Source: an uncultured Verrucomicrobiota bacterium
GTDB taxonomy: Bacteria; Verrucomicrobiota; Verrucomicrobiia; Limisphaerales; UBA9464
Length of the DNA: 64,000 nucleotides
Reading direction: 5' to 3'
Assembly: GCA_903922605.1 (NCBI GenBank)
Contig: CAIXUG010000018.1
Span: forward strand, 1-64,000
Part shown: in pieces, positions 10,339 to 47,854 of the stretch
Numbering within the stretch: position 1 is the stretch's first letter
Layout of the letters: every line of letters starts with the position of its first letter
Made by a program: the position numbers and the translations under genes
The notes under the pieces: generated by a model
Database searches by the model: none
The model's input: the letters and a program-made list of their open reading frames with translations, nothing else
Told to the model about the DNA's origin: nothing

Positions 10339-11604
10339 TCAGAACTTGTTGTTCCGGTAGGCGCCCATCGCGGGGGCGTCGGGGTTCACTTCAGGGCCGA
10401 AGTAACGCAGGGTCACGAGCGGTTCGGTCTCGCTGGTGTTCTCGAAGGTCACGCCGTTCTTCGCGCCGTCCTCCGTGCAGAAGTATTCGTCCTCGGTCAG
10501 CTCATTGAAGCGGATGAGCTTCGGGCTGACCAGCGGCTGGCCGTTGATCTTGCCGGTGCCCTGCACGCAGATGAGGCCGTACGCGCCGGCGTCCTTGATG
10601 GTGCACTTGGTGCCGGGCTCGACGGTCAGCTCCTTGGCGGTGAAGAGCTGTTCGCCATCGACCTTGCCGTACACGATCCAGCGGTCTACGAAGCCTTCCT
10701 TGCGGGTGTCGGCGACGGGGACAGGCTCAAGGTAGTGGTTGTCCTTGAAGTTCGGGTCCACGTTCTTGTCCCAGTCGAGCTGGTCCACAATGAAGTCGAG
10801 GTCCTTGTGCTTGCTCTTGGGCATGTCCTTCACGAGCAGGCTCCAGGGAACCTCGCGGCCCTCGACGAGGTTCTGGTACATGCCGAAGACATCGCTGCCC
10901 CACTGCGGCTCGTAGGTGCAGAGGCTGCCGGGCGCGTGCAGGACGCACGGGTCAATGAGCCAGCCGGAACCGACCTTGAGGCGGTACGCCTTGGAGAGGT
11001 CGAGAATGCCGTTGTCGCCCTTGTTCCAGTTTTCCAGGCACTTGCGGACCTGCGCCTTGGTCGTGCCGGGCTCGAAGCCCATGAACGTGTAGGGGAAATT
11101 GTTGCCGACGTTGTTGTGCTGCGGCGGGAAGTAGTAGCTCTCGGGCTTGCCCTCCTGGCCGACGAGCTTGGCCTGCTTGGCCGACTGGTGCATGTGGTGG
11201 GGGATCGGCCCCATGTTGTCGAAGAACTTCGAGTACACCGGCCACTTGCCGTACTTCTTCCAGATCGCCTTGCCGACGATGTCCGCGCCGCAATCCGCCA
11301 CGGCCTGCTGGAGCGTGAAGCGTTCCTTGCCGACAACGCAGTAGTTCAGGCCCTCGTCTGCGGCGCGGCCCTCATTGGCCGTGACGGTGGTGGAGGCGAA
11401 CCAGCGCTCGTCGATGCCGCCGCGATTCAGACCGTAGGCGTAGGTGTCGTCGGGATGGAGCTTGATGCGCAGGCCGGGCTGGAGGAACGAGCGCGGCACC
11501 CAGGCGGGCGCGAGGCGCAGGAGGCCCCCGGTGCGGGAGAGTTCGGCCCCGACCTTGGCGGCGGTGTTGGACTTGACGGTCTTAAGTTGTTGGACGGTGT
11601 TCAT
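10339..11604 (-). CDS. Cupin-type protein resembling class I mannose-6-phosphate isomerase
   Basis: A 421-residue cytosolic protein. The ATG at 11604 (MNTVQQLKTVKS) is chosen; upstream codons to 11790 overlap the divergent lipoprotein gene and look non-coding. Cupin metal-site features are visible: PIPHHMHQSAKQA with nearby KPESYYFPPQHN, then WLIDPCVLHAPGSLCTYEP, matching the order of the metal-binding His/Glu and the later His of phosphomannose isomerase-like cupins. The C-terminal half holds a second beta-barrel (CTIKDAGAYGLICVQGTGKI). It is divergently transcribed from the lipoprotein gene. Isomerase activity is inferred from fold-level motifs only. Confidence 0.65.
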   Translation of the reverse strand: MNTVQQLKTVKSNTAAKVGAELSRTGGLLRLAPAWVPRSFLQPGLRIKLHPDDTYAYGLNRGGIDERWFASTTVTANEGRAADEGLNYCVVGKERFTLQQAVADCGADIVGKAIWKKYGKWPVYSKFFDNMGPIPHHMHQSAKQAKLVGQEGKPESYYFPPQHNNVGNNFPYTFMGFEPGTTKAQVRKCLENWNKGDNGILDLSKAYRLKVGSGWLIDPCVLHAPGSLCTYEPQWGSDVFGMYQNLVEGREVPWSLLVKDMPKSKHKDLDFIVDQLDWDKNVDPNFKDNHYLEPVPVADTRKEGFVDRWIVYGKVDGEQLFTAKELTVEPGTKCTIKDAGAYGLICVQGTGKINGQPLVSPKLIRFNELTEDEYFCTEDGAKNGVTFENTSETEPLVTLRYFGPEVNPDAPAMGAYRNNKF

Positions 11605-17430: not shown

Positions 17431-17477
17431 TTCGGAGATAAGATTGGGGGGAATGGCAGCGGGCGAGTCGCCGCCGC

Positions 17478-17515
17478 TCTCCCTCACCCCGGCCCTCTCC
17501 CGCTGGGAGAGGGGG
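17478..17515. repeat. Short palindromic intergenic repeat
   Basis: CTCCCTCACCCCGGCCCTCT followed by CCCGCTGGGAGAGGGGG folds with CCCTCTCCC pairing to GGGAGAGGG. This motif is widespread as a dispersed intergenic palindrome in many high-GC bacteria. It lies downstream of the epimerase gene and could also stabilise its 3' end. The rest of 17431-17702 shows nothing else I can support. Confidence 0.6.
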
Positions 17516-17702
17516 GAATCATCGTCCGCCTTCTAGCAAAAGTCCGAGGTCGGACTGGCCGAAGCATCTTCCGCAACCCGGGAAGCCGCCTGGTTTTCCC
17601 CCGTGGTTTCCGCTCGGGCCACTTTGCCGTCGGCGGCATATTTTATGAAACCGTTCTAATGGGAGACGCCGGCACGCAATGGCAAAAGCCGGCCGGCTCC
17701 GC

Positions 17703-44425: not shown

Positions 44426-45097
44426 ATGACTCCTGAACAAATCGCCCAGGCCAATTCCGACCTGCACGGCAAGTCCGCCTTGGAAGTTGTCCGGTGGGCC
44501 ATCGCCCAGGCCGGCGGACGTGCCATTGTCTCCACCAATTTCCGGCCGTACGAGGCCGTGCTCCTGCACCTCGTTACGCAGGTGCAGCCGGACATCCAGG
44601 TGCTCTGGGTGGACCACGGCTACAACCGTCCCGCCACCTATAAGCACGCCGAGGCGTTGAAGGCGCAGCTCAAGCTGAACATCAGGGCCTTCGTGCCGAA
44701 GCTCACCGCCGCGCATTACGACGCGGTCTTCGGTGGCATGCCCGAGCCGACCCCCGAGAACGAGGAACTCATCAAGGCCTTCAGCACGACCATGAAGCTG
44801 GAGCCCTTCCAGCGCGGCATGCGCGAACTTGCCCCGACCGTCTGGCTCACCGCGCTCCGCAAGGTGCAGAACCCGAACCGCGCCGGTCTCGATATCGTCT
44901 CGCACGATGGCAATTTCGGCTCCCTGAAGGTCAGCCCCGTCTTCCACTGGAGCGACGCCGAGATGGAAGCCTACCTCGCGCAGCACAACCTCCCGAACGA
45001 GTGGGATTACTTCGATCCCGCCAAGGCCGACGAGAAGCGCGAATGCGGCCTGCACGCGGCCTGGGGCGGGAAGGCGGTCGGCGGCAAGAGCAACTAG
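44426..45097 (+). CDS. cysH: Phosphoadenylyl-sulfate reductase CysH-type
   Basis: A 223-residue PAPS/APS reductase producing sulfite. The PP-loop-like segment is AIVSTNFRPYEAVLLHLV, followed by VLWVDHGYNRPATYKHAE, and the active-site cysteine is in KRECGLHAAW near the C-terminus. This is the only cysteine in the protein; the paired Cys-Cys ligands of [4Fe-4S] APS reductases are absent, so the sequence favours a cluster-free PAPS reductase needing thioredoxin. It is the second gene of the cys cluster. Confidence 0.9.
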   Translation: MTPEQIAQANSDLHGKSALEVVRWAIAQAGGRAIVSTNFRPYEAVLLHLVTQVQPDIQVLWVDHGYNRPATYKHAEALKAQLKLNIRAFVPKLTAAHYDAVFGGMPEPTPENEELIKAFSTTMKLEPFQRGMRELAPTVWLTALRKVQNPNRAGLDIVSHDGNFGSLKVSPVFHWSDAEMEAYLAQHNLPNEWDYFDPAKADEKRECGLHAAWGGKAVGGKSN

Positions 45098-45159
45098 CAG
45101 ATCGCAGTTGGGAGATGGGGCACTTTGGCCGCCAACTCCCAACTGCCAACTCCCATCTT
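45097..45159. repeat. Heptamer repeat hairpin between cysH and cysD
   Basis: GCAGATC-GCAGTTG-GGAGATG read forward, a 14-base spacer, then CCAACTC-CCAACTG-CCAACTC-CCATCTT. The left and right blocks are complementary (GCAGTTGGGAGATGG against CCAACTCCCAACTGC), so the block can fold. The same heptamers bracket the four-helix-bundle gene at 46105-46132 and 46509-46536. Confidence 0.8.
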
Positions 45160-45165
45160 CTTTCC

Positions 45166-46104
45166 ATGTCCTCTTACCAACTGGATCATCTTCAATATTT
45201 GGAGACCGAGGCCATCCACATCATGCGTGAGGTGGCGGCAGAGTTTGAGCGGCCCGTGCTCCTCTTCTCCGGCGGCAAGGATTCCATCTGTCTGCTACGG
45301 CTCGCCGAAAAGGCCTTCCGGCCCTCGGACCTGCCGATGCCCTTCCTCAACGTCGAAACCGGCCACGAGTTTCCGGAACTGATCGAGTTCCGTGACCGCC
45401 GTGCGAAGGAGCTCGGGGCAAAGCTCATCGTCCGCACCGTCGATCAGGCCATCGCCAACGGCACGGCGATGGTTGCGCCCGGTGAGATCAGCCGTAACAA
45501 GCTGCAGATCCCCGTGCTGCTCGGCGCCATCGAGGAGTTCCGCTTCGATTGCGCCATCGGTGGCGCACGGCGCGACGAGGAGAAGGCCCGCGCCAAGGAG
45601 CGCTTCTTCAGTTTCCGCGACGGCTTCGGCCAATGGGATCCGAAGAACCAGCGGCCCGAGATCTGGAACGTGTACAACGCCCGCCTCAATGCCGGCGAAA
45701 ACATGCGCGTCTTCCCCCTCTCCAACTGGACAGAGATGGACGTGTGGGAATACGTCCGCCAGGAAAAGCTGGAGGTGCCAAACATCTATTTCAGCCACCG
45801 GCGGGACTGTTTTAGGCGGGGCGGGCAATGGCTGCCCGTGCCGCCGCCGCACACCGATCCCACCAAGCCCGATCCGTACGAGGGCGCCCGGCCCAAGCCG
45901 AACGAGAAGCGCGAGACACTCGTCGTGCGCGTCCGCACCATCGCGGACATGATCAGCACCGGCATGATCGAGTCGCCCGCCGACAGCGTCGACGACATCA
46001 TCGGCGAAGTCTCCGCCGCCCGCGTGACCGAGCGCGGCACCCGCGCCGACGACAAGGCCAGCGAGGCCGCGATGGAAGACCGCAAGAAGGCGGGATATTT
46101 TTAA
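45166..46104 (+). CDS. cysD: Sulfate adenylyltransferase subunit CysD
   Basis: A 312-residue ATP sulfurylase catalytic subunit making APS from sulfate and ATP. The ATG at 45166 (MSSYQLDHLQYLETEAIHIM) is the normal start; the frame open to 45001 overlaps cysH. The PP-loop is SGGKDS at 35-40, and GGARRDEEKARAKERFFSFR and LSNWTEMDVWEYV are family signatures. It needs CysN as GTPase partner; normally the two genes are adjacent, but here a four-helix-bundle gene separates them. Confidence 0.96.
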   Translation: MSSYQLDHLQYLETEAIHIMREVAAEFERPVLLFSGGKDSICLLRLAEKAFRPSDLPMPFLNVETGHEFPELIEFRDRRAKELGAKLIVRTVDQAIANGTAMVAPGEISRNKLQIPVLLGAIEEFRFDCAIGGARRDEEKARAKERFFSFRDGFGQWDPKNQRPEIWNVYNARLNAGENMRVFPLSNWTEMDVWEYVRQEKLEVPNIYFSHRRDCFRRGGQWLPVPPPHTDPTKPDPYEGARPKPNEKRETLVVRVRTIADMISTGMIESPADSVDDIIGEVSAARVTERGTRADDKASEAAMEDRKKAGYF

Positions 46105-46132
46105 GCAGATAGGAGATGGGAGTTGGCAGATG
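46105..46132. repeat. Heptamer repeat left of the four-helix-bundle gene
   Basis: GCAGATA-GGAGATG-GGAGTTG-GCAGATG follows the cysD stop codon directly. The GGAG of this repeat serves as Shine-Dalgarno and the ATG of the last unit is the start of the downstream gene, so the repeat supplies translation signals. GGAGATGGGAGTT recurs inverted downstream. Confidence 0.8.
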
Positions 46133-46510
46133 GCTACCAAGATCAACGCGTTCGAGGAACTGGAGGCCTGGAAGGTCGCCAGGGAATTGGTGCGCCTTGT
46201 TTACGAGTGCTTTCGTCGCCCACTCGCGGCCAAGGATTTTGGCCTGAGAGATCAGGCACAGCGCGCTGCCGTGTCCGCCATGACCAATGTCGCTGAAGGC
46301 TTCGAACGCGTTCACTCCTTGGAAAGACTGCAGTTCTACAATATTGCCCGCGCCTCTTGCGGCGAGGTTCGCTCACTCTCCTACATAATGCTCGATGCCG
46401 GCTATCTCTCTGCCGATGAGCAACAGCAACTGCTATCCTTGGTCTCGCAAACTGGCCGCCTGATCTCAGGCCTCATCCGCTCCACCCGGCTGCGAACTGC
46501 ATCCGCCTAA
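46130..46510 (+). CDS. Four-helix-bundle protein (23S rRNA-intervening-sequence/Avd family)
   Basis: A 126-residue protein of the S23/IVP family: INAFEELEAWKVARELVRLV opens helix 1, then FGLRDQAQRAAVSAMTNVAEG with the conserved R-x2-A-x3-I/A-N-I/V-AEG motif, RVHSLERLQFYNIARASCGE, and a last helix. Relatives are encoded inside 23S rRNA intervening sequences in some bacteria, act as the Avd accessory protein of diversity-generating retroelements, or occur as stand-alone genes. It sits between cysD and cysN, flanked by inverted heptamer repeats. No reverse transcriptase or rRNA is in the window; function here is unknown. Confidence 0.88.
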   Translation: MATKINAFEELEAWKVARELVRLVYECFRRPLAAKDFGLRDQAQRAAVSAMTNVAEGFERVHSLERLQFYNIARASCGEVRSLSYIMLDAGYLSADEQQQLLSLVSQTGRLISGLIRSTRLRTASA

Positions 46511-46536
46511 CTCCCATCTCCGATCTCCCATCTCCT
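46509..46536. repeat. Heptamer repeat right of the four-helix-bundle gene
   Basis: AACTCCC-ATCTCCG-ATCTCCC-ATCTCCT overlaps the stop codon of the four-helix-bundle gene and ends 4 bases before cysN. Its reverse complement contains GGAGATGGGAGTT, identical to the left repeat, so the gene is bracketed by an inverted repeat. Confidence 0.8.
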
Positions 46537-46540
46537 TACG

Positions 46541-47854
46541 ATGTCCGCCCCCCATCCCATCGAGCTGCTCCGCTTCAACACCTGCGGCAGCGTCGACGAC
46601 GGCAAATCCACCCTCATTGGCCGGCTCCTTTATGACTCCAAGAACCTCATGGAGGACCAGTTGGAGGCGTTGGAGCGCTCCGCCGACATCACCGGAGGCG
46701 GCCAGATCAATCTCGCCAACCTGACCGACGGCCTCCGTGCCGAGCGGGAGCAGGGCATCACGATCGACGTGGCCTACCGCTACTTCGCCACGCCGCGTCG
46801 CAAGTTCATCGTGGCCGATACCCCGGGGCATGTGCAGTACACACGCAACATGGTCACGGGCGCCTCGACGGCAAACCTCTCCATCGTGCTCGTCGATGCG
46901 CGCCAGGGCGTGATCGAGCAGTCGCGCCGGCACACCTACATCGCCTCGCTGCTGCGCATCCCGCACCTCGTCATCGCGGTGAACAAGATGGACCTCGTGG
47001 ACTGGAGCAAGGAGCGGTTCCTCGAGATACGTGACAATTTCGAGTCCTTCCTGCCCCGGCTCGACATGAAGGATGTGAAGTTCATCCCGATGAGCGCGCT
47101 CAACGGCGACAACGTCGTCGATGCTTCGAAGCACACGCCCTGGTACGTCGGCCCGACGTTGCTCGGCCACCTGGAGGATGTGCATATTGCCAGCGACTGG
47201 AACCTGCAGGGCTTCCGCTTCCCGGTGCAGTGGGTGAACCGCCCCAACAACCCGCGCGATCCGAAGCTGCACGACTTCCGTGGCCTGAGCGGCCAGATCG
47301 CCGGTGGCACCGTGAAGGTCGGCCAGAAGGTCATGGTGCTGCCCAGCGGACTGAAGAGCACCGTGAAGGAAATCTGGACCTATGGCGGCCCGCTCCAGGA
47401 GGCCTTCTGCCCGCAATCGGTCACCCTGGTGCTGGAACACGATCTCGATATCAGCCGGGGCGACATGGTCGTGGGCCTCGACTCCATGCCCGGCGCGAAC
47501 ACCGAGCTGCACGCCCGCATTGCCTGGATGCATCCGCGCCCGCTTCAGCGCGGGAAGAAGTATTTCCTCAAGCACACCACGCAGACCGTGCAGGCCGTGG
47601 TCACCTCGCTGGAAAACCGCATCGACATCCACACCTACGAGCCGCAGCCCGAGCCCGCCGAACTCACGATGAACGATATCGGCGAGATCCGCCTGAAGGT
47701 CTCCAAGCCGCTGGTCTTCGACGGCTACGCGACGAACCGGCTGACCGGCTCGTTCATCCTCATCGAGCAGGGCACCAACGCCACCGTCGGTGCCGGCATG
47801 CTCAACCCGCCGCTGGAACCGGTGAAGCCGGAGTACAACGACTTCGCGATCTGA
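46541..47854 (+). CDS. cysN: Sulfate adenylyltransferase large subunit CysN (GTPase)
   Basis: A 437-residue EF-Tu-like GTPase that powers APS synthesis by CysD. G1 is GSVDDGKS at 16-23, G3 DTPGH at 93-97, G4 NKMD at 148-151; EREQGITIDVAYRYF and the beta-barrel domains follow. No C-terminal APS-kinase (CysC) domain is fused, as the protein ends with the domain-3 barrel. Only heptamer DNA and no clear Shine-Dalgarno lies before its ATG. Confidence 0.96.
   Translation: MSAPHPIELLRFNTCGSVDDGKSTLIGRLLYDSKNLMEDQLEALERSADITGGGQINLANLTDGLRAEREQGITIDVAYRYFATPRRKFIVADTPGHVQYTRNMVTGASTANLSIVLVDARQGVIEQSRRHTYIASLLRIPHLVIAVNKMDLVDWSKERFLEIRDNFESFLPRLDMKDVKFIPMSALNGDNVVDASKHTPWYVGPTLLGHLEDVHIASDWNLQGFRFPVQWVNRPNNPRDPKLHDFRGLSGQIAGGTVKVGQKVMVLPSGLKSTVKEIWTYGGPLQEAFCPQSVTLVLEHDLDISRGDMVVGLDSMPGANTELHARIAWMHPRPLQRGKKYFLKHTTQTVQAVVTSLENRIDIHTYEPQPEPAELTMNDIGEIRLKVSKPLVFDGYATNRLTGSFILIEQGTNATVGAGMLNPPLEPVKPEYNDFAI

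Follow-up and report, generated by a model that had tools for sequence, protein, structure and literature searches.

Several described systems resemble the locus analysed here. One is the intervening sequence (IVS) in the 23S rRNA of Coxiella burnetii, an element of 428 nt that contains an S23p ORF between 28-bp inverted ends, has three to four tandem heptamers, variable in copy number, before the start codon and is cut within its stem by RNase III in vitro (PMC4990558). Degenerate tandem heptamers are also known as heptameric SSRs or STRRs, mostly intergenic, from Calothrix/Nostoc, Xanthomonas and Beggiatoaceae; examples include GGGAATC of Xanthomonas and GGGGA(T/C)T of Nostoc (PMC4692102) and TAACTGA of Beggiatoaceae and cyanobacteria (PMC4679880). 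Inverted pairs have been reported among the Xanthomonas repeats too (PMC4692102), but these repeats were never tied to a gene. In the REP/RAYT system, a single gene for a Y1 tyrosine transposase lies between inverted dispersed repeats, and many copies of the repeat, which is a palindrome, are geneless (PMC2817692). Proteins of the S23/IVP four-helix-bundle (4HB) family, PF05635, have been reported near CRISPR loci (PMC10910872) and in DGRs (PMC10053308), where the family member Avd accompanies a reverse transcriptase.

The window, that is, the whole 64,000-nt stretch of DNA analysed, comes from an uncultured verrucomicrobial bacterium and carries a PF05635 gene in an operon of sulfur assimilation genes, in which profiles identify CysD, CysN and CysH as its neighbours. 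The features of the locus are the following:

44426..45097, plus strand: cysH, host operon (ORF and profile)
45097..45160, no strand: gene-less hairpin of the window unit heptamers at the cysH-cysD junction (sequence)
45166..46104, plus strand: cysD, host operon, upstream neighbour (ORF and profile)
46105..46132, plus strand: upstream arm of four tandem heptamers, GCAGATA (46105-46111), GGAGATG (46112-46118), GGAGTTG (46119-46125) and GCAGATG (46126-46132)
46130..46510, plus strand: 4HB gene, S23/IVP, PF05635, TIGR02436, 126 aa (ORF, profile and fold matches)
46509..46536, minus strand: downstream arm of four inverted heptamers, AACTCCC, ATCTCCG, ATCTCCC and ATCTCCT
46541..47854, plus strand: cysN, host operon, downstream neighbour (ORF and profile)

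A sequence-only reading of this DNA had described a 432-bp block of four heptamers, a 4HB gene and four inverted heptamers that fills the gap between cysD and cysN, and this description proved exact. The cysD stop codon TAA occupies 46102-46104 and the upstream arm begins at the next base; the downstream arm ends 4 nt 5' of cysN, the ATG of which is at 46541. As had also been proposed, the repeat itself supplies the translation signals: the ATG of the cassette gene (46130-46132) lies within the last upstream heptamer, with an SD-like GGAG 7 nt 5' of it, and on the other side the downstream arm overlaps the stop codon. A repeat search found the arms to be complementary over 23 nt at 87% and over 18 nt at 94%. 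The 15-mer GGAGATGGGAGTTGG, with at most 3 mismatches allowed, occurs 16 times in the window versus 2.1 expected, a count reached in 0 of 100 shuffles, and 11 of the 16 occurrences fall in 45097-45160 and 46105-46535. The predicted RNA fold of the block pairs the two arms as an outer stem (z -2.9, with no shuffle equally stable); an Rfam search of the sequence returned nothing of note.

The assignment of the window protein to the S23/IVP family, made in the sequence-only reading, is borne out by profiles (PF05635, 94.2 bits against a cut-off of 33.8, 7e-27; TIGR02436, 89.1 bits against a cut-off of 24, 2e-25). The AlphaFold (AF2) model has a mean pLDDT of 92, and Foldseek matched it to the four-helix folds of 2GSC (Xcc0516; E 3e-6, TMq 0.80), the sole sequence relative in the PDB, and 2RLD (BT_0352; E 4.5e-4), as well as to Avd (4DWL/8UB7), with which it shares the fold at 9-10% sequence identity. 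Avd forms a pentamer, in agreement with the five chains listed in each of 2GSC and 2RLD, and by homology the window protein should be a pentamer as well. The only ORF enclosed in the cassette is the PF05635 gene, with no transposase or reverse transcriptase beside it; in this the cassette differs from REP/RAYT, from which it is further set apart by its repeat, a tandem heptamer array with a unit that differs from cassette to cassette. With the 23S rRNA IVS it shares an S23-type ORF, a length of about 430 nt, complementary ends of about 28 bp, a hairpin RNA and heptamers before the start codon. Whereas the IVS lies inside 23S rRNA, however, the window cassette lies between cysD and cysN, outside any rRNA helix, and has its own repeat unit, with heptamers on both sides rather than upstream as in Coxiella (PMC4990558). 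By analogy, the window element would be the same kind of thing as the Coxiella IVS, placed in an mRNA.

The genome that contains the window has eight PF05635 genes, and a single heptamer common to all of them was considered and rejected, as the window unit, GSAGWTG, is near just one of the eight. At first this seemed a refutation; when the flanks were read for repeats of any period, the pattern emerged. Inverted short-period arms are present at 8/8 of the genes by inspection and at 6/8 under a strict criterion, the units being GGAGACA, the 8-mer GTGAGCCA, GGAGATG, the 6-mer TTAATC, GGATGAA, AATGAAA, ATTTACG and GCGAACA. The family occurs in 28 of the 39 genomes of the window's order. When the upstream flank was compared with the reverse-complemented downstream flank, 55 of 97 scorable genes of the order exceeded the 99th percentile of displaced windows, and when inverted similarity and periodicity were both required, 69 of 95 genes in 28 genomes qualified, versus 0.1% of 6000 random blocks. 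Period 7 is predominant in these cassettes (2% in controls). The check proposed in the sequence-only reading, for the same heptamers beside such genes in related genomes, thus found arrays there, but each cassette has its own unit.

The same anatomy extends far beyond the order. The 80 loci obtained in a genome scan come from about 20 named phyla and include cyanobacteria, alphaproteobacteria, Acidobacteria, Bacteroidota, Clostridia, Planctomycetes, Patescibacteria and Chloroflexi as well as an archaeon; the sample is skewed to the SIPANIAEG subgroup, since a narrower alignment was used for the scan because the broad one had no conserved stretch to scan with. Among these, 59/80 exceeded the 99th percentile of displaced windows, and 55/80 carried an array of period 7 in one or both flanks, versus 2.6% of control windows. 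Arms were found on 19 of 25 viral contigs, and like anatomy was seen at most of the sampled cyanobacterial plasmid loci and on a Riemerella plasmid, a set with cassettes within nrd, cas and cmr operons. Clear arms are absent from a quarter to a third of PF05635 genes. Of the 145 cassettes whose arms are periodic, 108 have a period of 7, 23 one of 8 and 11 one of 6; the unit, which varies between cassettes and agrees between the two arms of one cassette, follows the motif NNNYAGK (information 2.51 versus at most 2.08 in permutations). The window cassette is therefore one case of a general rule, a very widespread class of cassettes. That an ordinary gene just has purine-rich flanks of SD-like and linker sequence would agree with the G-richness of the upstream arms (G exceeds C in 93 cassettes, the opposite holding in 13), but this reading by chance is refuted by the rate of 0.001 at which random blocks have matching periodic inverted flanks, and with the inverted match, the period of 7 and the recurrence across phyla its probability is practically negligible.

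Within CRISPR operons, 4HB cassettes were observed between cas6 and cas4 and between cas10 and cmr3 (L121, L124, L125), and the published CRISPR linkage of the family may reflect incidental insertion. In one of these, on a Pseudanabaena plasmid (L121, 4HB CDS 1513-1872 between cas6 and cas4), the long GCTAAAA/GCCAAAA arrays are direct, not inverted.

The relation between the repeat unit and the protein can be followed across cassettes at different sites. Unit similarity is 5.6 at a protein identity of 0.25-0.35, stays at this baseline (5-6) below 45% identity and rises to 10.2 at 55-70% and 17.4 above 70%; at protein identities of at least 0.6, none of 200 permutations of the arms equalled the observed unit similarity. 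For example, a cassette of Acidobacteria (L161) and one of Phormidium (L163), with 67% protein identity, both have GGGAGT-type units, and GGAGTCA-type units are common to cassettes of the window's order and of Aulosira, Nostoc and Trichormus at 60-72% protein identity. Since unit similarity tracks protein similarity at different sites, the gene and its arms travel together; such covariation is predicted by a cassette that moves with its ends and cannot be explained by inheritance at a fixed site. It also makes the arms likely binding sites of the protein, and comparison of the sequences thus makes self-recognition of the arms by the cassette protein probable. When cassettes at the same site in different species were paired, the two arms within a cassette proved more alike than the upstream arm of one orthologue and the downstream arm of the other in 46/46 pairs with less than 70% protein identity; counted by site group, this held for 15 of 18 (p=5e-4). 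The concerted arms reflect either mutual correction or a common constraint, e.g. pairing or protein recognition; an equal result would arise if the two cassettes of a pair had inserted at the site independently, as may be the case for some pairs.

Heptamer arrays are, at the same time, frequent where no 4HB gene is found. A 0.86 Mb sample of the genome that carries the window contains 27 strict period-7 arrays (about 31 per Mb) versus 0-1 for periods 5, 9, 10, 11 and 13, an excess of tandem degenerate heptamers of the kind by which heptameric SSRs and STRRs are recognized. At a looser setting, the sample holds 57 solo arrays outside cassettes versus a handful of cassettes; some arrays lie inside genes, and some form gene-less hairpins with loops of 34-56 nt. 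Comparison of genomes G000 and G004 found the same unit in most arrays and a different unit at some sites. Two such switches at fixed sites between congeners were seen on one contig of G000 (C62:31559-31600 and C62:32243-32280, or 11559-11600 and 12243-12280 of L265), and the switch sites of this contig include an array in a glycosyltransferase-like reading frame, with AGCTCAA versus GGGGAAC. The same contig has a palindromic repeat of about 290 bp (L265:15481-15785), CCCTCACCCCGGCCCTCTCCC...GGGAGAGGG, which is dispersed, with some 40 copies in G004 and parts in the window near 17459-17530, and is unrelated to the heptamers.

Because solo arrays far outnumber cassettes and geneless arrays are exchanged at fixed sites, arrays may behave independently of the gene. 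One could thus suppose that heptamer arrays are an independent class of repeats, comparable to the cyanobacterial STRRs, which are inserted and swapped by recombination and in or between which 4HB genes merely land; a density of about 31 per Mb with most arrays geneless, the gene-less hairpins and the unit switching in situ at sites without the gene would all suit this explanation. It is nevertheless unlikely, given that unit and protein covary at different sites, that 21 of the 57 solo arrays have a unit matching that of one of five resident cassettes, versus 11 of 117 foreign arms (p=4e-5), and that inverted pairs enclosing a block of 4HB size are hardly seen except at 4HB genes. The question raised in the sequence-only reading, whether heptamer runs are equally common at junctions without such genes, thus receives a divided answer: runs do occur there, while inverted pairs belong almost entirely to the 4HB genes. 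For the cassette reading, gene-less hairpins and solo arrays would be non-autonomous or decayed forms.

Occupied and empty sites bear directly on movement. The cysD-cysN junction is occupied in G000, G004, G001, G006 and G007, and also in G026, from another family; it is empty in G005, G008, G010, G012 and G033, and in G002 and G003 it contains other sequence without a 4HB gene. The proposed search of this junction for empty sites in close relatives therefore gave both occupied and empty junctions within one genus. In three of the occupied junctions (L134, L136 and L135 of G001, G006 and G007, respectively), the downstream array is translated as an additional N-terminus of CysN, e.g. MSNSSPISDLRSPISQSPAPVELLRF. 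A sister cassette (L007) lies between what are read here as sdhA and sdhB, in a gap of 485 nt that measures 28 nt in G002 and G003; no target-site duplication was seen at this empty site. At the sdhA-sdhB junction of G004 (L288, G004:C19), the downstream (outer) arm of a former cassette is kept and two other genes, one ORF6N-like by eye, have taken the place of the interior.

At the cysH-cysD junction, a complete 4HB cassette is present in G001 and G007; its unit differs from that of the window hairpin at 45097-45160, which is probably a miniature or decayed cassette. Genome G027 holds several cassette copies of about 550 bp, 86-91% identical, in unrelated places and in some cases with stop codons. 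Four of them (L093, L102, L111 and L328) have about 60 bp of common sequence 5' of the upstream arm, which might be a promoter belonging to the element. The sequence-only reading had offered mobility as plausible, and on genome comparison the mobility of the cassette now appears well supported by the empty sdhA-sdhB site, the dispersed copies and the gene-less hairpins at the same junctions. Its idea of a minimal cassette, similar to an IVS, that leaves the operon intact is likewise supported by the occupied and empty cysD-cysN junctions, the sdhA-sdhB empty site, the joint travel of gene and arms and the anatomy of the Coxiella IVS.

The orientation of the cassettes is strongly biased, 83 being sense to both neighbours and 14 antisense to both (p=4e-13). 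This bias, the G-rich upstream arm that provides the SD and start codon and the retention of the cys cassette in several species could also point to a domesticated autoregulator of the host operon, no longer mobile today, which would act on translation or decay of the mRNA by binding its heptamers. Such a regulator is quite unlikely in view of the patchy presence, the empty sites and the unrelated host operons, as well as antisense cases, e.g. nrdB-nrdA (L113), and dispersed copies with stop codons. A further possibility, suggested by the common fold of the window protein and Avd, is a DGR- or retroelement-like route in which the protein would be the Avd-type partner of a reverse transcriptase, and the latter would copy the hairpin RNA back into DNA. 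It is very improbable: DGRs have a reverse transcriptase, and no RVT_1 was found in the 8 genomes of the window's genus, which hold 44 PF05635 genes, which argues against this route.

The reading preferred here, to which we give a probability of roughly 70%, is that the window block is a mobile IVS-like cassette in which a cassette-specific repeat of about 7 nt forms an inverted array on either side of an S23/IVP 4HB gene. The gene would spread together with its arms, both into gaps between cistrons and into rRNA, where the result would be the classical IVS. In a polycistronic transcript, the two arms would base-pair to give a long stem that leaves the ORF in the loop, and, by analogy with the rRNA IVS, the stem would be a substrate of RNase III, so that such processing of the cassette RNA is plausible and the flanking cistrons would stay usable. 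An mRNA-borne element might be tolerated because cutting between cistrons would be harmless. The arms would most likely be bound by the encoded protein, and such binding would explain both the joint change of unit and protein and the lasting likeness of the two arms. Points that speak against this reading are the lack of a transposase or reverse transcriptase in the cassette and of RVT_1 in the genus, the failure to establish a target-site duplication, the PF05635 genes without clear arms, the great number of solo arrays and the exchange of geneless ones at fixed sites, the direct arms of L121 and the additional 60 bp or so in the G027 copies.

Heptamer arrays, rRNA IVSs with upstream heptamers and PF05635 genes at CRISPR loci and in DGRs are each already in print. 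In the literature covered, to which subscription journals and preprints contributed scarcely, only the Coxiella IVS paper, with its upstream heptamers, connects PF05635 genes with heptamer arrays. The placing of PF05635 genes, across phyla and within ordinary operons, between two inverted arrays of a heptamer of their own is apparently undescribed. More broadly, and tentatively, at somewhat less than even odds, S23/IVP 4HB genes may be minimal mobile elements spanning the phyla, with terminal inverted repeats that consist of self-specific heptamer arrays and are recognized by the element's own protein, and with movement that requires no known transposase or reverse transcriptase; rRNA IVSs and the SSRs/STRRs of cyanobacteria (possibly also of Xanthomonas and Beggiatoaceae) would then be their rRNA-borne and non-autonomous forms.

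Two old puzzles may thus be one, namely the function of the S23/IVP family, unknown although structures were solved in 2006-2007, and the origin of bacterial heptameric repeats, noted in Calothrix around 1990 and in Xanthomonas, Nostoc and Beggiatoaceae in 2015. As the 4HB gene lies between inverted arrays of its own heptamer, both puzzles become open to binding assays with matched and mismatched arms. The finding would carry the biology of rRNA IVSs over to ordinary operons; it also points to a mobile element that has one gene of about 120 codons, and this class of cassettes may be a link between rRNA IVSs and the still unexplained heptamers repeated in the genomes of cyanobacteria and other bacteria.
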